Part shown: positions 5,464-51,848 of the stretch, piece by piece
Layout: each line of letters starts with the position of its first letter
Numbering within the stretch: position 1 is the first letter of the stretch
Assembly (NCBI GenBank): GCA_947383005.1
Contig: CANDBT010000024.1
Location: forward strand, 1 to 64,000
From: an uncultured bacterium
Lineage (GTDB): Bacteria > Bacillota > Clostridia > Lachnospirales > Lachnospiraceae
Reading direction: 5' to 3'
Length of the DNA: 64,000 nucleotides
Notes under the pieces: generated by a model
Database searches by the model: none
Told to the model about the DNA's origin: nothing
The model's input: the letters and a program-made list of their open reading frames with translations, nothing else
Position numbers and translations under genes: made by a program

Positions 5464-6126
5464 CTATTTGATTAATATTTTCTTTTGATAAAAACGTACA
5501 GTGCAGGACAGGGCAAAACATATGACAAAATAGGTCAGGGCAATAAATGCGTATAAGGTAATAATTTCTGCCGGGGTTCGCAGCGGGGCCATTACAATAG
5601 AACAGTTCCGCATAAATTCGGCGATATCTACCGCTTTTAAAAAGGATGTATCTTTGATTACGGTGATTACCTGGGAAAGCATTGCGGGTATGATGCTTTT
5701 GTAGGTTTGCGGCAGCACAATATAAAACATGGTCTGCCAGAAACTGAAGCCTTGGGAAGCCGCCCCTTCAAACTGTCCTTTTGGGATGCCATTGAGTCCT
5801 CCGCGGACGATTTCAGCCATAACTGCAGTAGTGAACAGGGTGATGGCGAATATGGCTTTTATCAAAGGATCGCCGTTCATGGTAAAACGTATCCATAAAA
5901 TCCACAGTACATTGGGGGTACAGCGGAAAAATTCAATATAGGCACTGGCCAGCCAGGATAAAAAGGCCAGTTTCCCTGTACAGAAATGGCGGAGCATAGC
6001 CATAACCGTCCCTAAAATTAAACTGAGGACAATGGAACATACAGCAATAAATATGGTTAAAGCCAATCCTTGCATCATAAACAAAAAATTGTCTTTAGTG
6101 AAAATAGTTATCAGAATTTGTCCCAT
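5464..6126 (-). CDS. Polar amino-acid ABC transporter permease (second of pair)
   Basis: Inner-membrane subunit of a polar amino-acid uptake transporter (HisM/GlnP family, 220 residues, normal length). It shows several hydrophobic segments and the family loop GAASQGFSFWQTMFYIVLPQ, the EAA-type motif that contacts the ATPase. It is the last gene of a four-gene minus-strand operon (ATPase, binding protein, permease, permease) and starts only 1 base after the previous gene's stop. The two permeases probably form a heterodimeric channel. The bidirectional terminator at 5422-5461 closes the operon. Substrate cannot be told from sequence; a glutamine- or cystine-type amino acid is likely. Confidence 0.9.
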   Translation of the reverse strand: MGQILITIFTKDNFLFMMQGLALTIFIAVCSIVLSLILGTVMAMLRHFCTGKLAFLSWLASAYIEFFRCTPNVLWILWIRFTMNGDPLIKAIFAITLFTTAVMAEIVRGGLNGIPKGQFEGAASQGFSFWQTMFYIVLPQTYKSIIPAMLSQVITVIKDTSFLKAVDIAEFMRNCSIVMAPLRTPAEIITLYAFIALTYFVICFALSCTVRFYQKKILIK

Positions 6127-6127
6127 T

Positions 6128-6835
6128 TTATGCCACCCCCTTTGCCTTTTTTGCCGAGGGAATTTGTTTGGAACGAATTTCCAGATAGCGGGCCAGCCGT
6201 GCTAAGGGGAAACAGATGGCAAAATACAATAACGCGCAGGGCAGGTAAGCCTGGACAAAGAAATTGCGATCCCCGCCCCAGGAATCGGCATGGTACATTA
6301 GATCCATACCGGCAACCATAGCCAATACAGAAGTATTTTTCACCAAGTTTAACGCCTGGTTGGTAAGGGGCGGTAAAATCATTTTCATGGTTTGGGGCAG
6401 GATAATATACCACATGGTTTGTAAATAGCCAAATCCCTGCGAATAGGCGGCATCAAACTGGCCCTTTGGCACGGCCTCAATCCCCGTGCGGATGACTTCG
6501 GCGATATAGGCGCCGTGATAAATACCTACACCGATTACGCCAAGCCAGAATTTGGGGACTCTTCCGCCAATGACAAAAGGCAGGCAGTTATAATAGAAAA
6601 AGACCTGCACGACTAACGGTGTATTCTGGAAGAATTCCACGTAGGCTCTCGACAGGAATTGGCAGATTTTTATTTTCATTGTGGAAAGGATACCAAAGAT
6701 AACACCAAGGACGAGCGCCAGCAGGAGTCCTGCCAGCGCTACTTTTAAAGTCATGATAAAACCTGGTATATATTCCGTAGGGAGTACCTTTAAGAAGGCT
6801 TCCCATCGTTTTACATCAAACAGATCTTTAATCAT
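6128..6835 (-). CDS. Polar amino-acid ABC transporter permease (first of pair)
   Basis: Membrane subunit of the same importer (HisM/GlnP family, 235 residues). Hydrophobic segments start near residue 25. The N-terminal EFFQNTPLVVQVFF and the coupling loop AAYSQGFGYLQTMWYIILPQ are family hallmarks. It lies 3 bases after the binding-protein gene and 1 base before the second permease, so translation is probably coupled. It should pair with the downstream permease and receive substrate from the lipoprotein at 6839-7768. Confidence 0.9.
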   Translation of the reverse strand: MIKDLFDVKRWEAFLKVLPTEYIPGFIMTLKVALAGLLLALVLGVIFGILSTMKIKICQFLSRAYVEFFQNTPLVVQVFFYYNCLPFVIGGRVPKFWLGVIGVGIYHGAYIAEVIRTGIEAVPKGQFDAAYSQGFGYLQTMWYIILPQTMKMILPPLTNQALNLVKNTSVLAMVAGMDLMYHADSWGGDRNFFVQAYLPCALLYFAICFPLARLARYLEIRSKQIPSAKKAKGVA

Positions 6836-6838
6836 AAG

Positions 6839-7768
6839 TTATTCGATTCCCCAATCTTTCAGCATTTGGTCAATTTTTCCGCTGCTCTTCAAATCGTTGA
6901 CCACACCATTGACAAGCTCTGCCAGTCCTTTATTGTCAAGTTTGGAAGCCACGCCATAGTCCTGCTCGGCAAAACGGTCGTCTAAAATAATCGTTGTATC
7001 ATCGTTGTATCCGGCCAGTATAGCGCGGTCAACGGAGAACACGTCTACATTTTTAGAAGCCAGTGCGGCGGCCATGGATGGATAACCATCGAATTCTTCA
7101 AATTCCGGAGTTACGTCAATCCCCTGTTCATCCAGATATTCCTGAAATACCTTTTTGGTTGTGGAACCCTGGGATACGGCGATCACTTTGCCGTCCAGGT
7201 CAGCGCAGGATTGGATGCCTGAATCTTTTAATACCAGCAGTCCAACGGCGTCGGTATAGTAAGGATCGGAGAAATTCCAGCTTTCTTTTCTTTCTTCGGT
7301 AATGGTGTAAGTAGCAATCACCAGGTCAACTTCTCCATTGTCAAGAAGCGGGCCTCTGGTTTTGGCGGTAACACCCTGGAACGCAATGAGTTTTTTCTCT
7401 TTGGCCTCTTCTGCGGTACAGCCGAAAATTTTTCCAGCGATTTCATACGCTAAGTCAACTTCAAAGCCTTCCATCTCGCCGGTTCCGGTATTTTGCAGGC
7501 CGAATTTTGGGACGTCAACTTTGGTTCCCACTTTTAATACGCCGGCATCGATGATTTTCTGTACATCGGCAGTCACGTCGCCCGAGGCAGCCGTGGTGTC
7601 GTCAGCGGAGCCGGAAGTGGCAGAATCAGCAGCGGTAGTGGCGGAATCGGCTGCTGGTGCAGCAGTGGTGGTGCTGCCTGAATCGGAACCCTGGCATCCG
7701 CTTAATGCCATAGACAGAATAGCTGTTGCTGCCAGAATTTTGCTTGCTTTCCAGATGTTTGTTTTCAT
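6839..7768 (-). CDS. Amino-acid ABC transporter substrate-binding lipoprotein
   Basis: Extracellular solute-binding protein (family 3, polar amino acids) of 309 residues. The start at 7768 is chosen because GAGGAGG lies 8 bases upstream; an earlier in-frame ATG at 7801 has none. A lipoprotein signal ends in the lipobox ALSGC (about residue 21), followed by a low-complexity Ala/Thr/Ser linker and then the two-lobe binding domain (VGTKVDVPKFG, FEVDLAYEIA, DLVIATYTIT, all typical). It is anchored to the outer face of the membrane and delivers substrate to the two downstream permeases. It is the second gene of the operon, about 130 bases after the ATPase gene. Confidence 0.92.
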   Translation of the reverse strand: MKTNIWKASKILAATAILSMALSGCQGSDSGSTTTAAPAADSATTAADSATSGSADDTTAASGDVTADVQKIIDAGVLKVGTKVDVPKFGLQNTGTGEMEGFEVDLAYEIAGKIFGCTAEEAKEKKLIAFQGVTAKTRGPLLDNGEVDLVIATYTITEERKESWNFSDPYYTDAVGLLVLKDSGIQSCADLDGKVIAVSQGSTTKKVFQEYLDEQGIDVTPEFEEFDGYPSMAAALASKNVDVFSVDRAILAGYNDDTTIILDDRFAEQDYGVASKLDNKGLAELVNGVVNDLKSSGKIDQMLKDWGIE

Positions 7769-7895
7769 AATTGTTTCCTCCTCATATTTATGATGTTGCA
7801 AATATAACTAAGCTCGTTTGCGGAAAAACCGTCGGAAAACCTCGGACGGACAGCAAAGGGCTGTTGTTATCGAATGAATGGCCGGATAGCTGTAA

Positions 7896-8618
7896 TTAAT
7901 GCAGAATCTTGCCCAGAAAAGCTTTCGTCCGTTCATTTTCCGGATTAGTGAAAAAATGCTCGGGCGTTCCCTCTTCCACGATGTTGCCGTCATCCATAAA
8001 AATCACCCGGTCGGCCACCTGGCGGGCAAAACCCATTTCATGGGTTACGCAAACCATGGTGATATTTTCTTTGGACAGGCCAATCATCACATCTAAAACC
8101 TCCTGTACCATCTCTGGGTCGAGGGCGCTGGTAGGTTCGTCGAACAAAATCAATTTTTGCTTGGTGCACAAACTGCGGGCAATAGCGACGCGCTGTTGCT
8201 GTCCGCCAGATAAATTTTGAGGATATTCGTTCGCTTTATCGGCAAGACCGACACGTTCCAGATATTCCATGGCCGTGTTTTCAGCTTCCTTTTTCGGCAC
8301 CTTCTGCAGCTTGACGGGCGCCAAAGTCAGATTTTGCAAAACGGTCATATGAGGATAAAGGTTAAATTGCTGAAAAACCATGGAAGAATAATTTTTAGCC
8401 ATTTCGCTGCGGTTTTTCTTGGTTACCAGTTGGTCATTGATATAAACTTCACCGGAGGTGGGTTCCTCCAAATAATTGATACAACGGATCAAGGTGCTTT
8501 TGCCGCTGCCTGACGGTCCGATGATAACCAGCTTTTCCCCTTCTTCCACAGTCAGGTTAATATCTTTTAAGACTTCCAGATCACCAAAATTCTTTTTCAG
8601 ATTTTCTACTTTTACCAT
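7896..8618 (-). CDS. glnQ: Amino-acid ABC transporter ATPase (GlnQ family)
   Basis: Cytoplasmic ATPase that powers the amino-acid importer encoded downstream (240 residues, normal). Walker [10 protein letters not shown] (about residue 34), Q-loop [10 protein letters not shown], signature [15 protein letters not shown], Walker [13 protein letters not shown] and the switch histidine in VTHEMGFA are all present. It is the first gene of the operon, with promoter and hairpin leader directly upstream. The symbol reflects the family; the substrate is not proven to be glutamine. Confidence 0.92.
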
Positions 8619-8647
8619 ATCTCCGCCACCTTTCCCAAAATAAAAAT

Positions 8648-8688
8648 GCGCTGCGAGCGTCCCTTTACCAGAAAGGGAACCCGAGCGC
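8648..8688 (-). terminator. Attenuator-like hairpin in the operon leader
   Basis: On the minus strand a two-step hairpin (outer GCGCT/AGCGC, inner TCCCTTT/AAAGGGA) is followed at once by ATTTTTATTTT, the shape of an intrinsic terminator. It sits between the promoter and the first gene's ribosome site, so it would act as a leader attenuator. No known riboswitch class was recognised. Confidence 0.6.
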
Positions 8689-8731
8689 CATTGCTCACTT
8701 TGTTGTGATAAAATATTAAATTGTTTTCTGC

Positions 8732-8760
8732 ATTATATGCCCATTTTCAAAAAAAGTCAA
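8732..8760 (-). promoter_or_regulatory. Promoter of the amino-acid ABC operon
   Basis: TTGACT (8755-8760) and a consensus TATAAT (8732-8737), minus strand, with a 17-base spacer. It lies about 115 bases upstream of the ATPase start codon and leaves a roughly 100-base leader. Confidence 0.85.
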
Positions 8761-8842
8761 TAGGTTTTTTGAAAAAATACAATTTATTTATTGTTATAAC
8801 TACAATTTTTTGGTTGTGACAGAGAGGCGGTAAAGGATTTTG

Positions 8843-9117
8843 CTATTTTTTCTTTGCTTTTCTGGCAAATTCTGTAGTTACCAAATCCTCATAAGAAACC
8901 CGCTGGGACAGTTCACCGGCTTCCTCCAAAATGTTTTGCAGCAGGTCAAAACTGTCTTTCTCAAAGACAACATCGGTTTTCCAGGTGTCCTGAGACTGGT
9001 AACGTTCGACAATAGTGGTGATATTTTCCAAAGGGGTTTCTTTAAACTGGGGTTGAATAACTTTGGCAATTTCTTCCGGGGAGTGGGAATTGACGTAATC
9101 AATGCCTTTCTGGATGG
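8843..9117 (-). pseudogene. 3' part of a split ABC substrate-binding protein gene
   Basis: C-terminal 88 residues (from KGIDYVNSHSPEEIAKVI to the stop at 8843) of an NMT1/SsuA-type solute-binding protein. The open frame runs a little further upstream (to 9127), but those residues come from element 1. The N-terminal 245 residues lie 8.1 kb away at 17238-17971, same strand. Joining the two at the shared TGGATGG core reads ...FTNAIQ then KGIDYV..., a continuous 333-residue protein with the frame kept. No start codon or ribosome site of its own is visible, so the fragment is probably not expressed unless element 1 excises. Confidence 0.88.
9111..9117. other. Left attachment core of element 1
   Basis: TGGATGG, identical to 17238-17244. 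On the minus strand it encodes part of the Ile-Gln codons at the junction of the split binding-protein gene. Confidence 0.75.
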
Positions 9118-9148
9118 AATGGAACAAAGGCCGGAAAGATAAGGTTAT

Positions 9149-9250
9149 ACATATTTATGAGGCGTATATGGAGTATACGTTGATTGGATTTGGGCATTTT
9201 TGGCGAAAAACCTGCCACAAAGATGGGGCAAGGGAGTTTCCGGGAGCGCC
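9149..9250. repeat. Partial copy of the 160-bp palindromic repeat
   Basis: Aligns with the second half of the repeat at 13020-13178: TTTATGAGGCGTA, the small internal palindrome (GTATA...TATAC), TTGATT, GCCACAAAG and GAGTTTCCGGGAGCGC. The first half is absent. It lies just inside the left end of element 1. Confidence 0.7.
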
Positions 9251-9327
9251 CTGCCACAAAAATATGGGGTAGGACAAGATGACGGCACATATACATGCAG
9301 TAAAAGAAAGTATGGGTGGTGAAAGAT

Positions 9328-9432
9328 ATGCCGATTGGCAACGGCACGGCATTAGTAATTTGGGCGGCATACAAAAGCGGTGTGATCAATTTTGAAACTT
9401 TTTGTGAGATAAGAAAGAAATATTCTATCTGA
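9328..9432 (+). CDS. Small ORF (34 aa) coupled to the element 1 recombinase
   Basis: Short reading frame that starts ATGCCGATTGG after a GGTGGTGAAAG stretch. Its stop TGA (9430-9432) is 1 base before the recombinase ATG (9434), which has no strong ribosome site of its own, so translational coupling is likely. The product is MPIGNGTALVIWAAY followed by KSGVINFETFCEI and a short basic tail. No family was recognised. Element 2 has a similarly placed small ORF (55697-55855), which supports a real accessory role such as controlling recombinase expression or direction. Function is not known. Confidence 0.5.
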   Translation: MPIGNGTALVIWAAYKSGVINFETFCEIRKKYSI

Positions 9433-9433
9433 T

Positions 9434-11176
9434 ATGCAGAAAAAACGCGTGGTTTTTTATGGAAGGGTGAGTACTCAAAGCGATGAACAGATATCTGCGC
9501 TGGAAAATCAGATGACTTGGTATGATCAACTGCTTATGATGCATCCGGATTGGATTGTGGTGGGAAAATATGAAGATGCCGGAGTAAGCGGAACCAGCGT
9601 GAGCAAAAGGAAAGGATTCCAGAGAATGCTTGAGGACGGAATTACGTTTCACAAGTATGATTTGATCGTTACCAGGGAAACGAAGCGCTTTGCCCGCAAT
9701 ACAGTGGATGCTTTGTCTTATGTGCGGCTTTTGAAGCAACAGGGGATAGAGGTCTACTTTGTCAGTGATGCCATTCATACGATATCGGATAATGACGGGG
9801 AGCTGCGTCTCAGCATTATGGCGACTATTGCCCAGGAGGAGAGCAGGAAAACTTCGGAAAATGTGAGGGCCGGACAGCGGATTTCCAGACAGAACGGGAT
9901 TTTGCGGGGGACGGGAAATATTTTAGGATACCGGCGTACAGAAAGGAACCGCTATGAAATTGACCCGGAGCAGGCGCTGATTGTGAAAAAGATTTACCAG
10001 TGGTATTTGGAAGGGAGCGGAATCAGGGTAATCAAGCGAAAGCTTGAAGAACAGGGATATAAGACAGCTACCGGAAAAAGCTGCTGGCAGCTTCAGGTAA
10101 TTGCCAATGTACTGAAAAATCCGTTTTATATGGGAAAACAAAGGCAAATGGGGATGATTTCCGACGGATATCTTACCCAGAGACGAATAAAAAACAGTCT
10201 GGATAAAATTGAATATATTCAGGGAAATTATGAACCGATTATATCGGCGGAAGTATTCTATGAGGCAAAATCCATCCGTGAAAAACGATATAATCGCATG
10301 AACCAAAAAGGGAAGAAGAAGAGCGAAAGCGTCTGGTGCGGAAAGTATCTTTGCGGTTGCGGGAACGGCACAGTCAGGAGAACAGCCGGCGGAGAGGAAT
10401 TTGCTTTTATCTGTTATCAGCAACACAAAAACGGAATCCGGAAAAGAACGGCGGCAGAGGGGGAAAAAGATTTTTGCACACGGAGAACGGTTGCTGAATG
10501 GAAATTGGATATGATTGCTTATTATGTGATTAATGACGTATGGAAGAGCCATAGTGAAGATACCCGGGAAGCATTAAGGATTATTGCGGAATGCTACAGG
10601 GAGGAGAATGGTTTAAGCCAATGGGAACAGGAAACCGTGAAAAATAATATTGGCCGGCTGGAGAGGAGAAAACAGAACCTGTTGGATATGAGGGCAGACG
10701 GGGAGATTACAAAGGAAGAATATGAGGCAAAAAAGGAAGAATATGAAAAAGAGATGGATAAGCTGAAGCTTTCTCTTGCGGAAACGGCTGCAGAACAGAG
10801 TCCCCCGGTTGATGACAAGCAAAAGACTGACCAGATCAAGTCGGAATTGAAGCATATTGCGGATTTGTCAAAGCCAAAACTGCACAAAGAAATCGTAGAC
10901 GGATTTGTCTGGAAAATAATCCATATTTCGGATAATACTTTTGAACTTTATCTTCGTACAGGGAACGGGCCGTTTGGGTGTGTAGGGGAAGAGGAAAAAA
11001 CCATCCGTTACCGGGTATTTGAATATCCCGAGCCGGAGAGGCAAGAGACGATTCGCTGCACAAAGCTGAAATCCATGAAGCTGTGCTATGAAGATGCTGT
11101 TTGGTACCGCTCAATGCTGGGAAAACGGGTACAGAAAAATAAATGGGAGGATATGATTATCCATCTCTATATTTGA
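9434..11176 (+). CDS. Large serine recombinase of element 1
   Basis: Probable integrase/excisionase of element 1 (580 residues). The catalytic motif YGRVSTQSDEQISA sets the nucleophile at about Ser13, and the arginine helix is TKRFARNTVDALSYV (about 80). The recombinase domain (LGYRRTERNRYEID onward) leads to a modified Cys region (CGKYLCGCGNG, later FICYQQHK and DFCTRR), which is less regular than the usual zinc ribbon. A long coiled coil follows (about 375-450), then a C-terminal tail. It is transcribed towards the cargo operon and ends 10 bases before the cyclase stop codon. The start is coupled to the small upstream ORF. All catalytic residues appear present. Confidence 0.93.
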   Translation: MQKKRVVFYGRVSTQSDEQISALENQMTWYDQLLMMHPDWIVVGKYEDAGVSGTSVSKRKGFQRMLEDGITFHKYDLIVTRETKRFARNTVDALSYVRLLKQQGIEVYFVSDAIHTISDNDGELRLSIMATIAQEESRKTSENVRAGQRISRQNGILRGTGNILGYRRTERNRYEIDPEQALIVKKIYQWYLEGSGIRVIKRKLEEQGYKTATGKSCWQLQVIANVLKNPFYMGKQRQMGMISDGYLTQRRIKNSLDKIEYIQGNYEPIISAEVFYEAKSIREKRYNRMNQKGKKKSESVWCGKYLCGCGNGTVRRTAGGEEFAFICYQQHKNGIRKRTAAEGEKDFCTRRTVAEWKLDMIAYYVINDVWKSHSEDTREALRIIAECYREENGLSQWEQETVKNNIGRLERRKQNLLDMRADGEITKEEYEAKKEEYEKEMDKLKLSLAETAAEQSPPVDDKQKTDQIKSELKHIADLSKPKLHKEIVDGFVWKIIHISDNTFELYLRTGNGPFGCVGEEEKTIRYRVFEYPEPERQETIRCTKLKSMKLCYEDAVWYRSMLGKRVQKNKWEDMIIHLYI

Positions 11177-11186
11177 TATTTGTTTG

Positions 11187-12995
11187 TTATAATAATTCAT
11201 CCAATGTCAGAATTTCAAATCCGTCCTGCTTCCCTTTAAGTTTTATGGTGCTTCCAAGAGAAGTTGTCCGGATTCGTCCGTCTAAAGCATCTGCCACAGC
11301 GCGGGAAATATAGATCGTTCCCTTGGGAGCATTTGCTTCGAGGCGGGCGGCAGTATTTACGGTATCGCCAATGGCGGTATAATCCATACGCTGCGGGGAA
11401 CCGATATTTCCGACAACGGCCTCTCCTGCATGGATGCCGATGCCGAAAGACACCGTTCGCCCATATTGCTCCATCAATTCCCGGGAAAGGGTCCGGGAGC
11501 CATTGACCATATCCATGGCAGCCCGGGCAGCATTCATCACATAATCATCTTGCGGAAGCGGCGCGCCCCAGAAGGCCATTGCGGCATCGCCGACAAATTT
11601 GTCCAGGGTTCCGCCGTTTTCAAGGATGCAGCGGGAAATCAGGGTGAGATAACGGTTGAGAATTTCCACAACCTGATTGGGGGTGAGCATTTCAGACATA
11701 GGGGTAAAACCGCGAATATCAACGAAAAGCACGGCGATATGAGTGAGCTTTCCGCCGAGTTCCAAGGCATCCGTTCCCTCTTTTAAGATTTCGCCGACAA
11801 TTTCCGGCGCTACATAACGTTTAAAGGTGTTTGTTACCTGTTGGCGTTCCCGTGCGGCTTGGATATAGTTGACAGCAAGTGTGGCGGCATAGAGAATGGT
11901 TATTCCCGCGGGAATCCAGAGAACACGCAAAATAAAGCCTTTCTGATAAGCCAGGCGGCAGATGAGAAGCCATCCTATGCAGGTAAAAGCCCAAAAGAAA
12001 GTAGCGCTTTTAACCGGGCGTTTCCACAAAAAGAGCAGGGACAGGAAAAAAAGGAGGAAAAGTGCACAGAGCTGGGGACCGTCTTCTATTTTTGTTTTGT
12101 AATCGCCACGGAGCAGGGCATGAATGGCGTTGGCCTGATATTCGACGCCGTACATGGGAGCGGCGTGGTCAATGGCGGTGCGGTAACTGTCTTGAAGTCC
12201 CGGGGCATATGGTCCAATCAAAACGATTTTTCCGGCAAAGTATTCCGGGGAAAAATCGTCGGAGAGTAAATCGGCAACAGAAAAAGTCCCTCCGAAATCT
12301 CCGGGAAGAGCCGTAAAAGGCAGATACCAGAAGCCGTTTTGATTCAGGCGGGGAAGTTTTTGTTCACTCAGGCCGTAATACTCCTGGTACATCCTGGCCG
12401 CCGCCAGGGACAGAGAGGGGATTTCTCTTCCGTCAGGAAGCCGGGCGTAGAGCAGATGGCGGCGAAGAATCCCGTCGGAATCCATCATCGCGTTGATGTG
12501 TCCCTGGCGGGTCGCGTTTTTGAGAGCTTCGTAAGGTTCATCAAAAGAAGATGCGTGAAAACGTTCCCAGTGGAAGGAGTCTCCTTCGCCCTGGATAAAG
12601 GTGTCTTGAAATTCCATAGCGCAGGCAGTAATGACGTTTCCGTATTTTCCTGCGGCTTCTGTCAAATGGAGGTCAGGCTCTTTTTGAGTCTCGCCGGCAA
12701 AAAGGATGTCGATGGCGATAACCGCAGGGCGGCACTCGTCGGATTGGTTCAAGGCTTCGATAGCCTGGGCAAAAATATCCCTGCTCCATTGCGAGTAAGG
12801 CCCCAGGGTTTCCAGGGATTCCTGATCAATGCCAATCACTACGATTTGGTCGCCGGTGGTCATTTGGCGCTGGTTCAGCAAGTCGGAAACGAGCCAGTCG
12901 GCCCGGTTTATCAGATTCAGGGATGCGGGAAATGTCAGCAATCCGGAGAACAACGCCATAGCCAGCAAATGCTTTCCTGTAATTTTTTGTTTCAT
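11187..12995 (-). CDS. CHASE2-sensor adenylate cyclase (class III)
   Basis: Membrane-bound class III nucleotide cyclase, 602 residues. An N-terminal signal/anchor (about 8-27) leads to an extracytoplasmic CHASE2 sensor domain (about 40-310). Three hydrophobic segments (about 315-395) precede the catalytic domain (about 425-595). Metal-binding aspartates are in FVDIRGFTPM and KFVGDAAMAFWG. The Lys before FVGD and the Asp-Tyr-Thr of MDYTAIGDTVNTAARLE fit an ATP-specific enzyme that makes cAMP (known pattern; inferred here). It is the last gene of the element 1 operon, and a full palindromic repeat separates it from fecR. CHASE2-cyclases often sit beside FecR proteins, as here. The ligand sensed is unknown. 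Confidence 0.9.
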   Translation of the reverse strand: MKQKITGKHLLAMALFSGLLTFPASLNLINRADWLVSDLLNQRQMTTGDQIVVIGIDQESLETLGPYSQWSRDIFAQAIEALNQSDECRPAVIAIDILFAGETQKEPDLHLTEAAGKYGNVITACAMEFQDTFIQGEGDSFHWERFHASSFDEPYEALKNATRQGHINAMMDSDGILRRHLLYARLPDGREIPSLSLAAARMYQEYYGLSEQKLPRLNQNGFWYLPFTALPGDFGGTFSVADLLSDDFSPEYFAGKIVLIGPYAPGLQDSYRTAIDHAAPMYGVEYQANAIHALLRGDYKTKIEDGPQLCALFLLFFLSLLFLWKRPVKSATFFWAFTCIGWLLICRLAYQKGFILRVLWIPAGITILYAATLAVNYIQAARERQQVTNTFKRYVAPEIVGEILKEGTDALELGGKLTHIAVLFVDIRGFTPMSEMLTPNQVVEILNRYLTLISRCILENGGTLDKFVGDAAMAFWGAPLPQDDYVMNAARAAMDMVNGSRTLSRELMEQYGRTVSFGIGIHAGEAVVGNIGSPQRMDYTAIGDTVNTAARLEANAPKGTIYISRAVADALDGRIRTTSLGSTIKLKGKQDGFEILTLDELL

Positions 12996-13019
12996 GCCCG
13001 TTCTCCTTAGTTTGTATAT

Positions 13020-13178
13020 GTATTCTCGGAGTTTCTCTGTGCCTGGATTTGTGAGAAGATTTTTTGTCAGATGTGCCTAAATTTATGAGGCGTACATGGA
13101 ATGTACGTTGATTAAATTTAGGTGCATATGACGGAAAATCAGCCACAAAGGCAGGTGCAGGAGAGATTCCGAGAGTAC
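13020..13178. repeat. 160-bp MITE-like palindromic repeat, full copy
   Basis: Both ends read TCTCGGA/GTTTCTC... and ...GAGATTCCGAGAG as an imperfect inverted repeat across the whole 159 bp, with a small central palindrome GTACATGGAATGTAC. A second full copy is at 51691-51848 and a half copy at 9149-9250. It lies between the cyclase and FecR genes of one operon and could form a very long RNA hairpin in the transcript. Confidence 0.82.
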
Positions 13179-13183
13179 ATGTA

Positions 13184-14596
13184 TTATTCCTGATTAGCAT
13201 AATCCGTCAGTGCAGCCAGGACATCCTCGGCGGGAACCATTCCCCAACAGCCGCCGGAACTATCGATTGCGTATTCATAGCCGATTTCCGAAGGCGTTTT
13301 CCAGGTATTCGTCCATTGGTTGAATTCTTCTTCTGACGCGGGCTGCCCGTCTACGTGATAGGTTCCATCTTCGTAATTGGCGCCAGCCATAGTAGAGGCT
13401 CTCTGCATGCGTCCGTCGACGAGAGGGTAGACATAAGCATCGTAAAAGGTGCCGCCGTCAATGAGGTTGCCGCTAAAAAGGTACCCGTCGGCAAGAAACA
13501 GATTTTCCAGGCATGTATGATAAATCTCATTTGGCTCCTCCAGATGGAACATGGTCTGGTAGGAAACGGCTGCCCAGCTTATTACTTCTGCTCCCGGATG
13601 TTCGGGAGCTGTTGAAGTTGAGGCATATGCGCCGCTGGAAAAAAATATTCCCGGAATACCGTTTCCTCCGTCAAACAGGATGGCATAGCTTTGGAAAGGA
13701 TAGGAAGAAAATTCTGCCTGTCCGGCAATAAGCTGTTCATATTGGTCGGAGCCGATTTTCATTGCCTGAGAAAGTTCGTCGGCAAACAGTCTGGCTTGGG
13801 AGGGAGTCAGTTGGCAGGAATCTGGCGATCCATGGTATACGTGTTCATTGAAGGACAGTGACGGATTTGCGTTTTCTCCATCAGATAATTCACCTGGGTC
13901 CTGATCTGCATCGGCAATATCCAATCCGGATTCCTCAAATATTTTTTGGCGCAGTTCATCATCTTCCCGTAGTTCTTCCATGATATATTCGGGGATGTCG
14001 GATACCTCAAACGCCGAAAGTACAATCTGTTCTTCTCCCTCGGCAGGCCGGGTAATTTCAGCCATTTGTCCGGCAGAAACGGGAACGGTTTTGTCTTCCG
14101 CGTCGGAATTGTTTTTTTGGCATTCTACGGTTCCTTCCAAAATATAGACCCGCGTTTTTTCTTCCTTTGAGTTTTCCACCCAGCCGCAGGTTCCGCGGAC
14201 GCCTACAATCATGGAGGAGGTACGGATGTCTAAGCTTTCGTCATCTTCGAGCGGTTCGGTAACATGGAAAAAAAGTTTTCCGGAATGCACGATGATTTCC
14301 AGATCGTTTTTTCTCTTTGCAATCTCAATTTCGCTTTCGGCATCCATTTTGGTCAGTTTCACTTTATCTAAATTAATCCATGCATAGCTGGTTTGCGAAG
14401 TCTCTACCTGGTAGCCGCTGTACAGTCCCAGTTGTTCTGCCGGTTCAATTGTTTTTTGCTTCCCGTCTTGAATATTTACGGTTCCTTCCGTTTTTTTAAG
14501 CACCATTGTCGTGGCAATTTGCCGTGGCTGGCAGGAAACCAGACATAAGGACAAGGCAAGGAACAGGGCGGAAATCCGCCGGAGGTATTTGTTCAT
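13184..14596 (-). CDS. FecR-domain lipoprotein
   Basis: Secreted, membrane-anchored protein (470 residues from ATG 14596). The N-terminal lipoprotein signal ends at LCLVSC (about residue 20). A FecR domain follows (about 35-170): TEGTVNIQDGKQ, AWINLDKVKLTKMD, LEIIVHSGKLFFHV, IVGVRGTCGWV and VYILEGTVEC are its typical strands. FecR domains bind or sense ligands at the cell surface in iron-type signalling and beside CHASE2 proteins. The C-terminal 250 residues have no recognised domain and are acidic and Ser/Gly-rich. It is the third gene of the element 1 operon, downstream of the HD-GYP gene. It probably works with the CHASE2 sensor outside the membrane (inference). Confidence 0.82.
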   Translation of the reverse strand: MNKYLRRISALFLALSLCLVSCQPRQIATTMVLKKTEGTVNIQDGKQKTIEPAEQLGLYSGYQVETSQTSYAWINLDKVKLTKMDAESEIEIAKRKNDLEIIVHSGKLFFHVTEPLEDDESLDIRTSSMIVGVRGTCGWVENSKEEKTRVYILEGTVECQKNNSDAEDKTVPVSAGQMAEITRPAEGEEQIVLSAFEVSDIPEYIMEELREDDELRQKIFEESGLDIADADQDPGELSDGENANPSLSFNEHVYHGSPDSCQLTPSQARLFADELSQAMKIGSDQYEQLIAGQAEFSSYPFQSYAILFDGGNGIPGIFFSSGAYASTSTAPEHPGAEVISWAAVSYQTMFHLEEPNEIYHTCLENLFLADGYLFSGNLIDGGTFYDAYVYPLVDGRMQRASTMAGANYEDGTYHVDGQPASEEEFNQWTNTWKTPSEIGYEYAIDSSGGCWGMVPAEDVLAALTDYANQE

Positions 14597-14638
14597 GATG
14601 TTCACCATTCCCTATCTTTTTTAGTCATTTGCGTTTTG

Positions 14639-16135
14639 TCAGCGCCCTTCATCTTCCCAGCATCGGCTTTCCGTAAACTGCCGGGTCAGTTCCATATCCA
14701 GCTTGTCCTCTTTTTGAGCCATGGCCGTTAAAATCGACAATGCTTTTTCTATGGGCATCCCCGGTTTATAGGGGCGGTCGTCTGCTACCAGGGCGTCAAA
14801 AATGTCCAGAATGGTGATTATCCGTACCTCCGTGGGAATTTCCTCACCAGCGAGTTTTTTGGGATAGCCGCTGCCGTTTAACAATTCGTGATGGCTGGCC
14901 GCCCATTCCCGGACATGGGAAAATTCGTCGGAAAAATGAATTTGTGATAAAAGCTTATCTGTAATCACTACATGTTCTTCCATAATTTCCCGCTCTTTTT
15001 GAGAAAGAGTTCCCTTGGGTATGGAAAGCATCTGGTATTCTTCCGGGAGCAGCCACGGTTGCTGTCTGCCATTTTTATCCAGATAGGTCTGCCGGGATAG
15101 CTGTTTCAATTCCTCCTGCTGCTGTTCGGAGAGAAATCCCGCCTGATTGATTTGTTCCACAAAATTTTGTGCATGTTCGATTTGGCAGTACAATTCTTGT
15201 TCTTCTTCTATGCTGATGTGTCCTTTTAATTTTTCGATTTCCCCGCTAAGCCGGATAATCTCCATACGGTGGCGGAAATTCTGGTATTGTTCAGGGAGAA
15301 GGCGGTGCATTTTATTCATGACCTCTAAAGGCGTCACCAATTTCCCGATATCGTGCAGCCATACGCTCATCAGCAGTTCTTCTTTCTTCTCCGGGGGGAA
15401 AGGTTCTTCTTTTTGATGTTTCCTGGCCTGAAGATTCAAATAATCTAAAAAACGGCTTCCATAAAGAGCCATATGACGGGTATGGCTGCCGTTATATGGC
15501 GTTCTCTCATCGATTGCGGAAGACATTACGTGGACGAAAGAATGAAACAATTCCTTAATTTGACGGATGTAATAAACATTCTGGATGGTAATGGCTGCCT
15601 GGGAAGCCAGGGATTCCAGAACCAGTTCCATTTCCGGCGGGAATGCACATACATTGCCCTGATTATCCAAAGCATTGATAAGCTGTAAAACTCCGAGTTT
15701 TTCTCCGGCACGGTTGCGCATGGGAACTACCAGCATGGATTGGGTATGGTAGCCGGTTATCGAATCATAACGGATAGGGCCGGAAAAATCGTATTCTTTG
15801 CAGTTATACACATCTTCGATATTTATGGTTCGGTCTTCCAGAAGAGCTAAAGCGCACACGTTTTGGGGAGTAAGCGGCACAGGGGGCAAATCGGCGTCTT
15901 TTCCGTCCCCGCCGGAATAGGTGTGCAGGACATCATTGCGCATAATTTTAAAACGCAGAAAATCCCCGTCGCGCAGATACAGCGTGCCTGCATTACAGTT
16001 GGCAAGCTCCATAACATTGGAGAGGATTTTTTCTAAAAGAAGGTTTAAATCCCGTTCGCTGGAAAGAAGGACTCCGATTTCCAGGACTTTTTTAATAGAA
16101 GAGTCTGCAGAGCTAAAAGGCAATATTGTGTTCAT
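14639..16135 (-). CDS. GAF / HD-GYP-type phosphodiesterase
   Basis: Cytoplasmic signalling protein (498 residues from ATG 16135; a TTG at 16159 has no ribosome site). A GAF domain occupies about 15-200 (LLEKILSNVMELANCNAGTL, GVLQLINALD) and can bind a cyclic nucleotide or another small ligand. The C-terminal HD domain (about 205-480) has the metal-site pairs SVWLHDIGKL and ASHHELLNGSGYP, the latter being the GYP element of c-di-GMP phosphodiesterases. A long charged insertion of about 100 residues lies between the two HD motifs. It is the second gene of the element 1 operon. The expected activity is hydrolysis of c-di-GMP or a related cyclic nucleotide, possibly under cAMP control through GAF; both points are inference. 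Confidence 0.87.
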   Translation of the reverse strand: MNTILPFSSADSSIKKVLEIGVLLSSERDLNLLLEKILSNVMELANCNAGTLYLRDGDFLRFKIMRNDVLHTYSGGDGKDADLPPVPLTPQNVCALALLEDRTINIEDVYNCKEYDFSGPIRYDSITGYHTQSMLVVPMRNRAGEKLGVLQLINALDNQGNVCAFPPEMELVLESLASQAAITIQNVYYIRQIKELFHSFVHVMSSAIDERTPYNGSHTRHMALYGSRFLDYLNLQARKHQKEEPFPPEKKEELLMSVWLHDIGKLVTPLEVMNKMHRLLPEQYQNFRHRMEIIRLSGEIEKLKGHISIEEEQELYCQIEHAQNFVEQINQAGFLSEQQQEELKQLSRQTYLDKNGRQQPWLLPEEYQMLSIPKGTLSQKEREIMEEHVVITDKLLSQIHFSDEFSHVREWAASHHELLNGSGYPKKLAGEEIPTEVRIITILDIFDALVADDRPYKPGMPIEKALSILTAMAQKEDKLDMELTRQFTESRCWEDEGR

Positions 16136-16155
16136 CAATGATTTACCATTCCTTT

Positions 16156-17070
16156 TCAATAATTGTTTTGGGATATGTCAAATTCCTCGCCGTTCGGATG
16201 GTTATAACCTATCCGAAAATCCGGCAAAAAGATCGTCATTTTTTCTCTGGCAAAATATGCGGCGGAATCTTTTTGCCTGGCTAACGCTTCCTGGCGGGCT
16301 AAAAAATGGTCAGTGTAAGAAGCGGCGTAGTGAAGCATCAATATCCGTTCGGCTTTCGCCTGGCGGCGGAAATCAATACCTTGTTCCCAACTGGAATGTC
16401 CCCATCCCTTTTTTCGGTCTTTTTCCGCAAAATTTGCGTCCCAAAGCAGCAGATTGGCATTTTGGGCAAAATTCAGATAGGCCGGGGCGATCGATTCATT
16501 GATTTCACAATCCAGGCCATAAACAAGGCATGTTTTTCCGTCGTCTAACCGGTAAAGGAGACTTCCGCCGGGGTGGTTCCCAGGAAAAGTATGCAAGGTC
16601 AGCCCATTGTCGGCAGGTAAGCGCTGTGACCCGGTAAGACGGATGGATTTTCCGGGACAGAGCGGATGAAAAAAGACTTTTGCCGGGAAATTTTCAAGTC
16701 CCAGAGGCCAGTAAGGAGGTCCGATCAGATGTTTAAGCAGGAATTCCAGCCCGTTGTTTTTGGTGTTCAGGGCTTGTCCGTAGATATGTATTTCCATCTC
16801 CGGGTGGTAAAAGAGCCGGAAAGTGAAAAGGCCCATCAAATGATCCAGATGAAGATGGCTTAGGAAAATATCCACCCGTTTGCGTGTCCCTTCTTTTTCC
16901 AGGATGTCTCCTAAAACCGTCAATCCGCTTCCGGCATCAAAAACAATAAGATTCAAACCACAGGTAACGGAGACACATACGGTATTTCCGCCATAAGTCA
17001 TGAATTCCTTTTCCGGAGCGGGAGCCGCCCCACGGACCCCCCAAATCTGTATTTTCCATTCATTTTTCAT
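16156..17070 (-). CDS. MBL-fold metallohydrolase
   Basis: Metallo-beta-lactamase-fold hydrolase, 304 residues. The opening IWGVRGAAPAPEKEFMTYGG is the hallmark of a subfamily that resembles RNase Z/PhnP-type phosphodiesterases. Metal ligands are seen in LSHLHLDHLMG (HxHxDH, about 73-80), GNHPGG, GLDCE and LMLHYAASYTD. It is the first gene of the element 1 operon and has its own promoter (17126-17155); GGAGA lies 12 bases before the ATG. Its stop overlaps the region just before the HD-GYP start. A role in hydrolysing a cyclic nucleotide that balances the operon's cyclase is attractive but unproven; phosphodiesterase activity on other substrates is possible. Confidence 0.85.
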   Translation of the reverse strand: MKNEWKIQIWGVRGAAPAPEKEFMTYGGNTVCVSVTCGLNLIVFDAGSGLTVLGDILEKEGTRKRVDIFLSHLHLDHLMGLFTFRLFYHPEMEIHIYGQALNTKNNGLEFLLKHLIGPPYWPLGLENFPAKVFFHPLCPGKSIRLTGSQRLPADNGLTLHTFPGNHPGGSLLYRLDDGKTCLVYGLDCEINESIAPAYLNFAQNANLLLWDANFAEKDRKKGWGHSSWEQGIDFRRQAKAERILMLHYAASYTDHFLARQEALARQKDSAAYFAREKMTIFLPDFRIGYNHPNGEEFDISQNNY

Positions 17071-17125
17071 GATTTTTGTGCATCTCCTGTTTTATCTCAA
17101 GAAATATCTGTTGGATTTTTATTCC

Positions 17126-17155
17126 ATTGTATCATATGGCGGGGGGAATGTGCAA
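17126..17155 (-). promoter_or_regulatory. Promoter of the element 1 signalling operon
   Basis: TTGCAC (17150-17155) and TACAAT (17126-17131), minus strand, with an 18-base spacer rich in C/G, 55 bases upstream of the MBL gene. It lies within the element, so the cargo does not depend on the host gene's promoter. Confidence 0.7.
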
Positions 17156-17227
17156 GTAATCCGCCAGGCTATCCGAAAAATTCCCCGCCGTCCGATCTGT
17201 TACAAAATTATGACAGACGTTTTTGTT

Positions 17228-17971
17228 CTATGCCATTTGGATGGCGTTGGTAAATTTTTGAACGATATCGGGATGGGCACTTAAATAGCTCTTTTTTGCA
17301 CAATAGGCGGTGTAGGGGACATAACCGGAATCTGTGCCAAGGGAGGCTACCACGTAGCCGTTGCCTTCCAGCTCCAGACCGGTGGCGAAAGGTTCAAATT
17401 CAACCGTATAATCGGCGTCATTGCTCGTAAATGCAGCGGCGGTCAGGCCGAAACTGATGCTTTGGTCAATGGATAAATCTGTTTGCGGATCAATGCCGTT
17501 TTTTTTGAGAATATATTCAAATACCATCTGGGGCATACCGCCGGCTCTTCCGCCCAGAACCTTTGTGCCTTTCAGTTTATCCCAGGTGAAATGATCGTCC
17601 GGCTGGCGGGCCACCAGGAAGTTGCCGGCACGCTGGGTCAGTTGGGCGAAGTTGACGGCATAGTCCTCGGCGCCTTCAGCATAAGTGTAAATACTGGCCT
17701 CCGATCCCATAAAGCCGATATCTGCATCCCCGCTGACAAGAGCAGTCATCACTTTATCGGCACCGGCGCCATTAACCAGGGTGAGATCAAGCCCTTCCTC
17801 CTTGAAATATCCTAATTCGATGGCAGCATATTGGGGAGCATAGAATATAGAATGGGCGACTTCATTTAATGTTACCGGCGTAAGGCCGGTGTCTGTGCTT
17901 TCTGTCTGACAGCCGTTCAGAGAGGCGGCAGTAAGTGCGGCAGTAAGTAATAGGGAAAATGTTTTTTTCAT
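17228..17971 (-). pseudogene. 5' part of a split ABC substrate-binding protein gene
   Basis: N-terminal 245 residues of an NMT1/THI5-like solute-binding lipoprotein. The ATG at 17971 follows AAGGAGG. The signal ends in the lipobox SLNGC (about residue 21). The binding domain shows IFYAPQYAAIELGYFKEEG, ADIGFMGSEAS, TKVLGGRAGGMPQM and DYTVEFEPFA. After NAIQ the frame enters element 1, reads Met-Ala and stops at 17228. The missing 88 residues are at 8843-9117. As it stands the product lacks the last quarter of the fold and is probably non-functional. Restored, it would feed a TauABC/ThiXYZ-type importer; the ATPase at 50797 and the split permease at 51881/56640 are candidate partners (inference). 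Confidence 0.88.
17238..17244. other. Right attachment core of element 1
   Basis: TGGATGG, identical to 9111-9117, at the point where the binding-protein gene is interrupted after NAIQ. Confidence 0.75.
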
Positions 17972-18089
17972 AAATCCTCCTTGAGGGACTCACTTCGTTA
18001 ATATATAATATTGTGGAATCCCAAGATGGTGAACGTAACCACATATAACAACAAATAACGCTGGATGGTTATAAACGGAACACAAATTG

Positions 18090-18116
18090 CTAGCACTCAT
18101 TTAAAACGAGTGCTAA
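18090..18116. promoter_or_regulatory. CIRCE operator (HrcA binding site)
   Basis: CTAGCACTC, 9 bases, GAGTGCTAA: the standard CIRCE inverted repeat with one mismatch in the left arm. HrcA is the known repressor. It lies just upstream of the htpG -35 box instead of around the transcription start. Confidence 0.95.
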
Positions 18117-18123
18117 TTTTGTG

Positions 18124-18152
18124 TTGACAATTCTCCATGTTCGTATTAAAAT
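18124..18152 (+). promoter_or_regulatory. htpG promoter
   Basis: Consensus TTGACA (18124-18129), 17 bases, TAAAAT (18147-18152), about 60 bases before the htpG start. The CIRCE element ends 7 bases upstream. Confidence 0.88.
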
Positions 18153-18213
18153 AAGCCTTATTAACTGGTGCACATTGATAAACACCATCATAAAAGAATA
18201 GGAGTGATATGCT

Positions 18214-20214
18214 ATGGGTAGCAAATCAGGTAATTTATCCATTAATAGTGAGAACATTTTTCCGATTATTAAAAAATGGCTGTATTCGGACCATGATATT
18301 TTTTACCGGGAGCTGGTATCCAATGGCTGCGATGCCATTACCAAGTTAAAAAAGCTGGAATTGATGGGCGAATATTCCCGGCCGGACGATTGGGAATATA
18401 AGATTCAGATTAGCGTGAATCCCGACGAGAAGTCTATCCAGGTGACGGACAACGGCATTGGCATGACTGCTGAAGAGGTGGAAGAATATATTAACCAAAT
18501 TGCTTTTTCCGGCGCCCAGGATTTTTTGGCTAAGTATAAGGACAAAGCGAATGAAGACCAGATTATCGGACACTTCGGCTTAGGTTTTTATTCTGCCTTT
18601 ATGGTGGCGGATAAGGTTGCGATTGACTCTTTGTCTTATAAAGAGGGAAGCACCCCGGTACATTGGGAGTCTGAGGGCGGTCTGACCTTTGAGATGAAGG
18701 ACGGGGACAAGGACAGCCAGGGTACGACAGTTACGTTATATCTGAATGAAGAGAGTTATGAATTCTCCAACGAGTACCGGGCAAGGGAGGTTTTGGAAAA
18801 ATATTGTTCTTTTATGCCTATCCCGATTTTTTTGGACAATGTCAAGGCCGAACAGGCGTATGAGACGATTGATAAGGAAGAACTGACGGATAAGGATACT
18901 GTTGTGGAGACAGTGGTTGAACCGGCAAAGACGGAAGAGAAGGAAAATGAAAACGGGGAGAAGGAGACGGTGGAGATTGAGCCGTCCAAAGAACGATATA
19001 AGATTCTTAAGCGTCCGGTGGCGCTGAACGATACGACTCCTCTGTGGAATAAGCATCCTAATGAGTGTACGGAGGAAGAGTACAGGAGCTTTTACCGGAA
19101 GGTGTTCTTGGATTATAAGGAACCGTTGTTCTGGATTCATCTGAACATGGATTATCCGTTTAATTTGAAAGGGATTTTATATTTCCCCAAGATTAATACC
19201 GAATATGATTCGATTGAAGGTACAATTAAATTGTACAATAACCAGGTGTTTATTGCCGATAATATTAAAGAGGTTATCCCTGAGTTTTTGATGCTGCTGA
19301 AAGGGGCGATTGACTGTCCTGACCTGCCGCTGAATGTTTCCCGGAGCGCTTTGCAAAATGATGGATTTGTGAAAAAAATCTCGGATTATATTACTAAAAA
19401 AGTGGCAGATAAGCTGACGGGCATGTGCAAAACAGATCGGGAGAATTATGAGAAATATTGGGATGATATTGCGCCTTTTATTAAGTTCGGCTGCCTGAAA
19501 GATGACAAGTTTGCTGAGAAAATTAATGATTATGTCCTCTTTAAGAACCTGGACGGGAAATATCTGACATTAAAAGATTGCCTTGAGGCGAACAAAGAGA
19601 AGCATGAGAATACCGTCTTTTATGTGACGGATGAAAAGGAGCAGAGCCAGTACATCAATATGTTTAAGGAAGAGGGCCTGGATGCGGTTATCCTTCCCCA
19701 CAATATTGATAATCCCTTTATCAATCATTTAGAGCAAAAAAATGAAGGGCTGAAATTCCTGCGGATTGATGCGGATCTCAATGATACCTTTAAAGAAGAA
19801 GTAAAAGAAGACGATGAAGAATTTAAGAAGATATCAGAGACATTAACGGATATTTTCAAAAAAGCGTTAAATAATGATAAGCTGGCAGTAAAGGTGGAAA
19901 AACTGAAAAACGAGCATATTTCTTCCATGCTGACCGTGGCGGAGGACAGCCGTCGGATGCAGGATATGATGAAGATGTATAATATGTATGGTATGGATCC
20001 ATCCATGTTCGGGGGCGCCGGCGAGACATTGGTGCTTAATGCGAATCATAAGCTGGTGCAGTATGTGCTGAATCATGGAGACGGGGAAAATACGGCTAAG
20101 TTTTGCGAACAGCTTTACGACTTGGCGCTCTTAAGCCATGGCACATTGAATCCGGAAAGGATGACGAAATTTATTGCCCGCAGCAATGAAATTATGTTAA
20201 TGATGGCTGAATAA
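18214..20214 (+). CDS. htpG: Hsp90-family chaperone HtpG
   Basis: ATP-dependent Hsp90 chaperone of the cytosol, 666 residues. The GHKL ATPase domain shows ELVSNGCDAITKLKKLE, VTDNGIGMTAEE and HFGLGFYSAFMVADK. The middle domain has IHLNMDYPFNLKGILYFPK and LPLNVSRSALQND; the C-terminal dimerisation domain is complete. It is about 40 residues longer than the Escherichia coli protein, mostly through an acidic, Lys/Glu-rich linker near 225-265. Start ATG at 18214 follows AGGAGTG. It is transcribed alone, with a CIRCE operator and sigma-A promoter upstream and a strong hairpin downstream, so heat-shock control by HrcA is expected. Confidence 0.97.
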   Translation: MGSKSGNLSINSENIFPIIKKWLYSDHDIFYRELVSNGCDAITKLKKLELMGEYSRPDDWEYKIQISVNPDEKSIQVTDNGIGMTAEEVEEYINQIAFSGAQDFLAKYKDKANEDQIIGHFGLGFYSAFMVADKVAIDSLSYKEGSTPVHWESEGGLTFEMKDGDKDSQGTTVTLYLNEESYEFSNEYRAREVLEKYCSFMPIPIFLDNVKAEQAYETIDKEELTDKDTVVETVVEPAKTEEKENENGEKETVEIEPSKERYKILKRPVALNDTTPLWNKHPNECTEEEYRSFYRKVFLDYKEPLFWIHLNMDYPFNLKGILYFPKINTEYDSIEGTIKLYNNQVFIADNIKEVIPEFLMLLKGAIDCPDLPLNVSRSALQNDGFVKKISDYITKKVADKLTGMCKTDRENYEKYWDDIAPFIKFGCLKDDKFAEKINDYVLFKNLDGKYLTLKDCLEANKEKHENTVFYVTDEKEQSQYINMFKEEGLDAVILPHNIDNPFINHLEQKNEGLKFLRIDADLNDTFKEEVKEDDEEFKKISETLTDIFKKALNNDKLAVKVEKLKNEHISSMLTVAEDSRRMQDMMKMYNMYGMDPSMFGGAGETLVLNANHKLVQYVLNHGDGENTAKFCEQLYDLALLSHGTLNPERMTKFIARSNEIMLMMAE

Positions 20215-51690: not shown

Positions 51691-51848
51691 GTACTCTCGG
51701 AATCTCTCCTGCACCTGCCTTTGTGGCTGATTTTCCGTCATATGCACCTGAATTTAATCAACGTACGTTCCACGTACGCCTCATAAATTTATGCACATTT
51801 GACAAAAATCATCTCACAAAATCAGGCGCAGAGAGATTCTGAGAGCAC
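51691..51848. repeat. 160-bp MITE-like palindromic repeat, full copy
   Basis: Reverse-complement match of the copy at 13020-13178: GTACTCTCGGAATCTCTCC at one end, GCCTTTGTGGCTGATTTTCC, the central small palindrome ACGTACGTTCCACGTACG, and GAGAGATTCTGAGAGCAC at the other end. ATTAT occurs directly at both outer edges, a possible 5-bp target duplication. It lies between the ATPase terminator and the permease 3' fragment. Confidence 0.85.

Follow-up and report, generated by a model that had tools for sequence, protein, structure and literature searches.

A serine-recombinase element in a split binding-protein gene of Lachnospiraceae and four recurring cut sites in the same gene

Introduction

In the stretch of DNA analysed here (the window, 64,000 nucleotides from an uncultured bacterium of the Lachnospiraceae), two pieces of one binding-protein gene are separated by DNA that carries its own large serine recombinase. 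This raises the question of why this gene is interrupted and whether the interruption serves as a switch, as an earlier note on the locus had proposed. The reading that we prefer, with a probability of about 0.86, is that 9111-17237 is an element likely inserted by its own recombinase at the Gln246 codon of a binding-protein gene that has no transport partner genes of its own, and that the same gene is cut in related bacteria at four recurring codons, each almost only by one recombinase clade.

Results and Discussion

The gene and its exact rejoining

The earlier note took the two frames as pieces of one gene which lie on the same strand and rejoin in frame at 333 residues. This was borne out: deletion of 9111-17237 (8,127 bp) leaves 1,002 nt, i. 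e. 333 codons and a stop codon, without any internal stop. The joined frame reads FTNAIQ followed by KGIDYV, and comparison with intact relatives showed that AIQKGIDYV is conserved across the junction. At the corresponding place the intact relatives have FTNAIQKGMDYVNSH, FTNAVQKGLDYVNSH and FTNAIQKGLDYVNSH. The last residue and the stop codon of the N-terminal frame are supplied by the element, and the C-terminal piece is 81% identical to residues 242-332 of the intact relative G010. The gene product is NMT1/SsuA-like; the NCBIfam model SsuA_fam gave 72.5 bits with an intact relative, which is under its cut-off of 163.5. The features of the locus are collected in Table 1.

Table 1. Features of the split gene and of the element (positions in the window)
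Feature	Position	Strand	Basis or remark
C-terminal piece of the binding-protein gene with shared core, residues about 247-333	8843..9117 (frame to 9127)	-	open-frame reading and join
Likely crossover dinucleotide TG (CA on the coding strand), left end	9111..9112		junction sets and attP symmetry
attP inverted arm, left end (GGAATGGAACAAA)	9116..9128		11/13 against the other arm
Dispersed palindromic repeat, copy 1 in element	9153..9222	+	genome repeat search
34-aa open frame	9328..9432	+	conserved in front of the site-C recombinases and of that of one recQ-side cousin
Large serine recombinase, 580 aa	9434..11176	+	PF00239 3.4e-26, PF07508 1.4e-19; PHROG 95 integrase 2.4e-101
CHASE2 sensor - class III nucleotide cyclase, 602 aa	11187..12995	-	PF05226, PF00211
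Dispersed palindromic repeat, copy 2 in element	13081..13150	+	genome repeat search
FecR-domain protein, 474 aa	13184..14608	-	PF04773
GAF - HD-GYP protein, predicted c-di-GMP phosphodiesterase, 506 aa	14639..16159	-	PF13487, PF01590
Metallo-beta-lactamase-fold hydrolase, 304 aa	16156..17070	-	PF12706
attP inverted arm, right end (TTTGTTCTATGCC)	17222..17234		11/13 against the other arm
N-terminal piece of the binding-protein gene	17228..17971	-	frame of 247 residues; PF09084, PF13379
Likely crossover dinucleotide TG, right end	17238..17239		junction sets and attP symmetry

The heptamer TGGATGG is present at both ends as claimed (9111-9117 and 17238-17244). By itself it is weak evidence, as the genome has 543 occurrences of TGGATGG(N)A. 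It is the comparative data, not the heptamer, that strongly evidence an insertion at Gln246: the intact relatives, the three other genera cut at the same codon (see below) and the genus itself. The gene was found in all 24 genomes of the genus. The intact form that the earlier note expected in close genomes lacking the element was found in 17 of them, and intact relatives have the same residues at the junction; seven are split, five with both pieces seen and two with a single piece. No second copy of the gene was found in the window genome: the N-terminal piece as the query matched one place, and a whole relative as the query matched the two pieces only.

The truncation costs 87 residues. Codon 246 lies within a predicted helix (residues 234-253, block pLDDT 90) of an AlphaFold model which is weak overall (pLDDT 63, nine sequences) and was used solely for the helix around this codon. 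Because the cut falls inside the predicted helix and removes 87 residues, the interrupted binding protein is likely off while the element is present. Thus the earlier note, which had called a transporter subunit off, is probably right about the off state, whereas the role in transport is a presumed one. No permease or ATPase of its own lies beside the gene. Directly downstream on the same strand (5464-8618) lies an ABC set of the amino-acid type which includes its own binding protein; of three intact loci read by eye, two have such a set in the vicinity of the gene as well. Given this arrangement, a polar effect of the insertion on the neighbouring genes is possible as well.

Contents of the element

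The frame of the recombinase is complete with both domains. The resolvase catalytic domain PF00239 spans residues 6-155, with the catalytic serine presumably in YGRVSTQ, and PF07508 and a long C-terminal region make it a large serine recombinase. The zinc ribbon PF13408 gave no match at E 0.001 in this recombinase or in its relatives from G179 and G299; it is present in the one recombinase each that was tested from sites A, B and D (defined below). Three more serine-recombinase-like frames lie in the window (138-1511, 2956-4359 and 53792-55693), and the window genome has eight matches to the element's recombinase at E < 1e-40, itself counted.

Several known kinds of element were considered and rejected. 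The five large frames gave Pfam matches that include no capsid, tail, terminase or lysis genes, as a prophage would have, and no relaxase or conjugation genes, as would be expected of an ICE, an IME or another conjugative element. An SCC element, the target of which is rlmH, does not fit either: the best NCBIfam match of the recombinase is CcrB with 114 bits, far under the family cut-off of 900, and the insertion is in a binding-protein gene and not in rlmH. The signalling genes were also rejected as the hallmark of a mobile family. The seven stretches checked (12-18 kb) with relatives of these genes contained no serine recombinase, as judged with a profile built from the recombinases of the 35-member tree described below, and the relatives of the recombinase carry other genes. 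In L103, L106, L108 and L109, relatives of the cyclase, HD-GYP, metallo-beta-lactamase and FecR genes (parts 36-68% identical) occur in varied gene order, with no serine recombinase in the stretches read.

The palindromic repeat TTTATGAGGCGTAYNTGGANNRTACGTTGATT has 29 copies in the genome (at most two mismatches; reversed control 0), and a further copy lies in the window at 51756-51787. A search of 8000-20000 for functional RNAs gave no Rfam match.

Related recombinases beside cuts at the same codon in other genera

The window recombinase was searched for in 397 genomes of the family (E < 1e-110, at most three candidates scored per genome). The nearest recombinases are those of G299 (69% identical), G179 (64%), G274 (56%) and G158 (52%). 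G299, G179 and G274, which represent three other genera, all have the binding-protein gene interrupted at codon 246. G158 and G010 (50%) have an uninterrupted gene; their recombinase lies next to a fragment of RecQ whose start is within the helicase C domain. In a draft genome of 136 contigs with an estimated contamination of 3.06%, one might suspect that unrelated DNA was joined by an artefact of assembly or binning. However, both junctions lie within one contig, and at this codon the three other genera show both junction types as well, together with related recombinases, which makes the chance of such an artefact very small.

Among viral contigs, the window recombinase as the query found one locus at 26% identity and the G299 relative none; eight loci were found when the C-terminal part of the gene served as the query, and by alignment none of them starts at codon 246. 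In annotated phage records the recombinase had 445 matches, all below 60% identity. The gene had six, five of them covering at least 80% (unannotated human faecal 'Bacteriophage sp.' records).

The attachment sites and the likely crossover point

The shared core in the window is CCATCCA. The bases shared at the junctions of the window genome (G000) and of G299 limit the crossover to ATCCA, and a mismatch in G179 narrows it to AT or CA. The inverted arms that the earlier note had seen on the element side were found again, with 11 of 13 bases matching. When 13-base arms are centred on CA, 11, 11, 10 and 12 of 13 bases match in the four site-C attP sites; this sum of 44 was reached by none of 20,000 shuffles (maximum 27), and in each of the four, CA scores highest as the centre. 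The attB arms score 4 (window), 8 (G179) and 5 of 13, the fourth attB being cut short. The spacer length is a convention, as shifted arms tie for several spacers. Taken together, the shared junction bases and the symmetry of the four attP sites suggest that the crossover is likely at CA, with which the Gln246 codon begins; the junctions alone would not suffice for this, and it is the attP symmetry that points to CA.

There is good support for integration at a specific site by a serine recombinase and for a gene that excision would restore exactly. The reaction, whose direction and reversal we infer, would proceed as follows. The recombinase would pair attP, with its inverted arms around CA, with a conserved attB in the gene. 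A cut at CA and strand exchange would then integrate the element and leave the truncated frame of 247 residues. Excision, perhaps aided by the 34-aa frame, would rebuild the 333-residue gene without loss.

A conserved small frame in front of the recombinase

The stop codon of the 34-aa frame ends one base ahead of the recombinase. Such a frame precedes the recombinase in all five loci read, i. e. in the four site-C loci (window, G179, G299 and G274) and in the recQ-side cousin G158; these five match the profile by construction, because it was built from their peptides. Elsewhere, in 278 loci, the profile had no match at E < 1, and three scrambled profiles likewise had none. No such frame was seen by eye before two more distant recombinases (G012 and G000:C67). 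The frame has no Pfam or PHROG match and no annotated relative. Our guess is that it could be a directionality factor or a translational partner of the recombinase.

Four recurring cut sites

The cuts recur at about codon 70 (site D), 144 (site A), 190 (site B) and 246 (site C). Within the genus, the gene is cut at site A in G008, G011, G017 and G018, at site B in G005 and G013, and at site C in the window genome. In a sample of the family (one genome per species, assemblies only; gene called at E 1e-35) the gene was found in 109 of 200 genomes, corresponding to 108 of 199 genera. Thirteen of the 109 are split, nine with both pieces and four with one: at site A in G195, G170, G101 and G210, at site B in G093, G190 and G083, at site C in G000 and G179, and at site D in G192, G217, G237 and G154. 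Only a single piece was seen in G210, G192, G237 and G154 of the family sample and in G008 and G013 of the genus; in G192, G237 and G154 the N-terminal piece is outside the fetched stretches. No recombinase was seen beside the gene piece in G013, G008, G154 and G210.

Of 44 loci in viral contigs, 29 (on 26 contigs) contain a gene piece whose end falls at site A, B or D; for most of these loci the end was placed from the alignment. In the other 15 loci the match stops near residue 160-170 (14 loci) or at 113 (one locus), so a fifth site at residue 160-170 is possible. The 14 viral loci L220-L233, Clostridioides-like by look only, have a match that stops near 160-170 before phage-like genes.

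As read by eye, the cargo is varied: elements at sites B and D carry phage-like genes, one site-A element has a two-component/ABC-transporter set, and the element in the window has the signalling genes.

Some further arrangements were observed at site A. In G018, G195 and G011 (L031, 9143-11638) the frame of the recombinase stays open across the junction and continues into the C-terminal piece of the binding-protein gene. In G011 it measures 831 aa when counted from a GTG start, and the open frames are 829, 836 and 896 aa long. The integrated form would thereby encode a recombinase with a tail different from that of the circle. In G019 (L040, 3572-7760) an N-terminal piece with a site-A type junction is followed by AbrB/VapB-like and PIN-like frames and an ATPase (these middle genes by eye) and then by a second, nearly complete copy of the gene. 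In G003 (L041, 4275-4376) a short piece, residues 111-144, ends at site A about 1 kb before a whole copy.

One recombinase clade for each site, and two elements in one gene

As queries for recombinases at the loci, those of sites A, B and C plus one further recombinase were used in the family sample, and those of sites A, B, C and D for the site-C relatives and the viral contigs. With one exception, the 29 recombinases found beside cuts group by site, each site having its own clade (A 8, B 5, C 4, D 12). In a tree of 35 recombinases, which leaves out loci without a visible recombinase, the support is 100/99 for clade A, 100/98 for B, 99/99 for C and 91/98 for D, the deep branching order being unsure because of long branches. 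The number of label changes in this tree is at the minimum, and none of 200 shuffles was as low. The four clades are retained in a tree of 37, to which L234 and L220 were added, the latter without a demonstrated tie of its recombinase to the cut there. The exception is L234 (2777-4680), where a gene piece (residues 1-142, 48% identical) lies beside a serine recombinase of 481 aa outside clade A. This locus may be a case in which another, separate recombinase came to use site A on its own.

Two sites can be occupied at the same time. In G299 the gene is in three pieces on one contig (residues 7-192, 187-252 and 241-332) and holds a 2.8-kb element at site B as well as an 18.5-kb element at site C. 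G274 has pieces 8-153 and 142-247, and 234-330 on another contig, i. e. cuts at sites A and C. The viral locus L215 has in a row a site-D recombinase, piece 70-144, a site-A recombinase and piece 144-332; further viral pieces are 70-191 (L219), 70-144 (L236 and L237) and 70-154 (L235). The 2.8-kb element of G299 (L266, 2188-5007) contains little beyond its recombinase and one frame of 170 aa.

Coding quality of the split genes and the question of a switch

The aligned pieces of 21 split genes contain no internal stop; stops listed for some split genes sit, as far as compared, in matches that run past the junction. In the family sample, one of the 96 unsplit genes (that of G230) has an internal stop. 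The window gene deviates at 1 of 146 conserved columns; for the 92 intact genes the median is 0.007 and the maximum 0.048. G101, G190, G083, G170 and G195 deviate at 13, 11, 9, 8 and 7 of 145-146 columns, which is above or at the intact maximum; since they are among the most diverged carriers, decay and divergence are inseparable in them, and some column deviations are element-coded residues at the junctions. The pN/pS of the C-terminal piece in the window genome is 0.106-0.285 against 12 intact relatives and thereby within the range of intact pairs (0.021-0.295); as synonymous sites are saturated, these values do not date the insertion. The kept coding quality fits a recent insertion and a reversible occupation alike.

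A possible interpretation is that the insertion is fixed, i. e. that the recombinase is inactive, the gene dead, and both pieces bound to decay. This would agree with the loss of 87 residues and with the assembly of the window genome, which contains neither an empty site (attB) nor a circular junction (attP) with up to two mismatches. Yet the recombinase frame is complete with both domains, both ends of the element are complete and the joined frame is free of internal stops, so we regard a fixed insertion as rather unlikely.

The opposite interpretation is a regulated switch, in which the element leaves the gene under certain conditions and the binding protein is made only then, as with skin in sigK. 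Prophages in comK are an example of such an excision switch. The exact restoration of the 333-codon frame, the coding quality kept by both pieces and the conserved small frame beside the recombinase could all be taken in this sense. However, no excised form is present in the assembly, and the kept coding quality is equally expected from a recent insertion. Furthermore, elements with phage-like, transporter and signalling genes (by eye) use this gene at other codons, and no single regulatory scheme explains them. Hence a regulated switch seems unlikely. Of the earlier note's claim that the gene is switched on by excision, the exact restoration on rejoining stands, whereas neither an excised nor a circular junction was seen in the assembly; switching on by excision is possible.

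Four sites, four clades and varied cargo are explained at least as well by a convenient docking gene as by a gene-specific switch; carriers whose cargo differs this much appear to have made use of one convenient gene independently of each other. In the reading preferred here, the binding-protein gene acts as a shared docking gene, which is well conserved, occurs in roughly every second genus sampled and seems to be dispensable for its carriers.

One may speculate further that the gene is a four-slot docking gene of the Lachnospiraceae which stays intact because its occupation is reversible. Phages and cassettes of independent clades would each have evolved to their own codon since loss of the gene benefits the carrier or blocks rivals, for example if the lipoprotein were a phage receptor or part of a costly importer, and the 34-aa frame would let site-C elements leave, so that the gene comes back on. 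We consider this extended scenario unlikely as a whole.

Comparison with known systems

A literature search, which left out most subscription journals and bioRxiv preprints, found no description of this target gene. In the main text of Durrant et al. (2022, PMC10083194), 12.4% of the predicted site-specific integrases target a magnesium chelatase/protease gene, and one prolyl-isomerase site is used by 33 recombinases in six clusters at 50% identity; the terms 'ABC transporter' and 'substrate-binding' are absent from this main text. As in the cases described there, distantly related enzymes are found repeatedly on one gene. The present gene differs in that it is targeted at four different codons by a different clade each (with one exception) and can be occupied by two elements at once.

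The sporulation intervening elements skin in sigK and yin in yabG have directionality factors of 53 and 72 aa, according to the text of PMC10747680. In these systems, too, an element with a serine recombinase interrupts a gene which exact excision restores; in the window, the rejoining was done in the sequence. Unlike them, the window element sits in a non-sporulation gene, its content is not prophage-like, and it is known here from its sequence. For IME_Rho_tet, 116 of 256 reconstructed sites are in one small gene family, MAFF2, as given in PMC12904643. This element likewise belongs to gut Bacillota and has a serine recombinase and inverted terminal motifs, but its target gene is another one and it has a relaxase and mobC, neither of which Pfam showed in the five large frames of the window element.

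The strongest part of the finding is the target, one gene with four recombinase-specific slots, which goes beyond the single insertion. It provides four natural attB sites in one gene, each with a matched recombinase clade and one with a likely crossover base, and natural examples of two elements sharing one gene. The 34-aa frame is a candidate for a very small directionality factor. By this, the question of why recombinases choose certain host genes becomes testable in a common family of gut bacteria.
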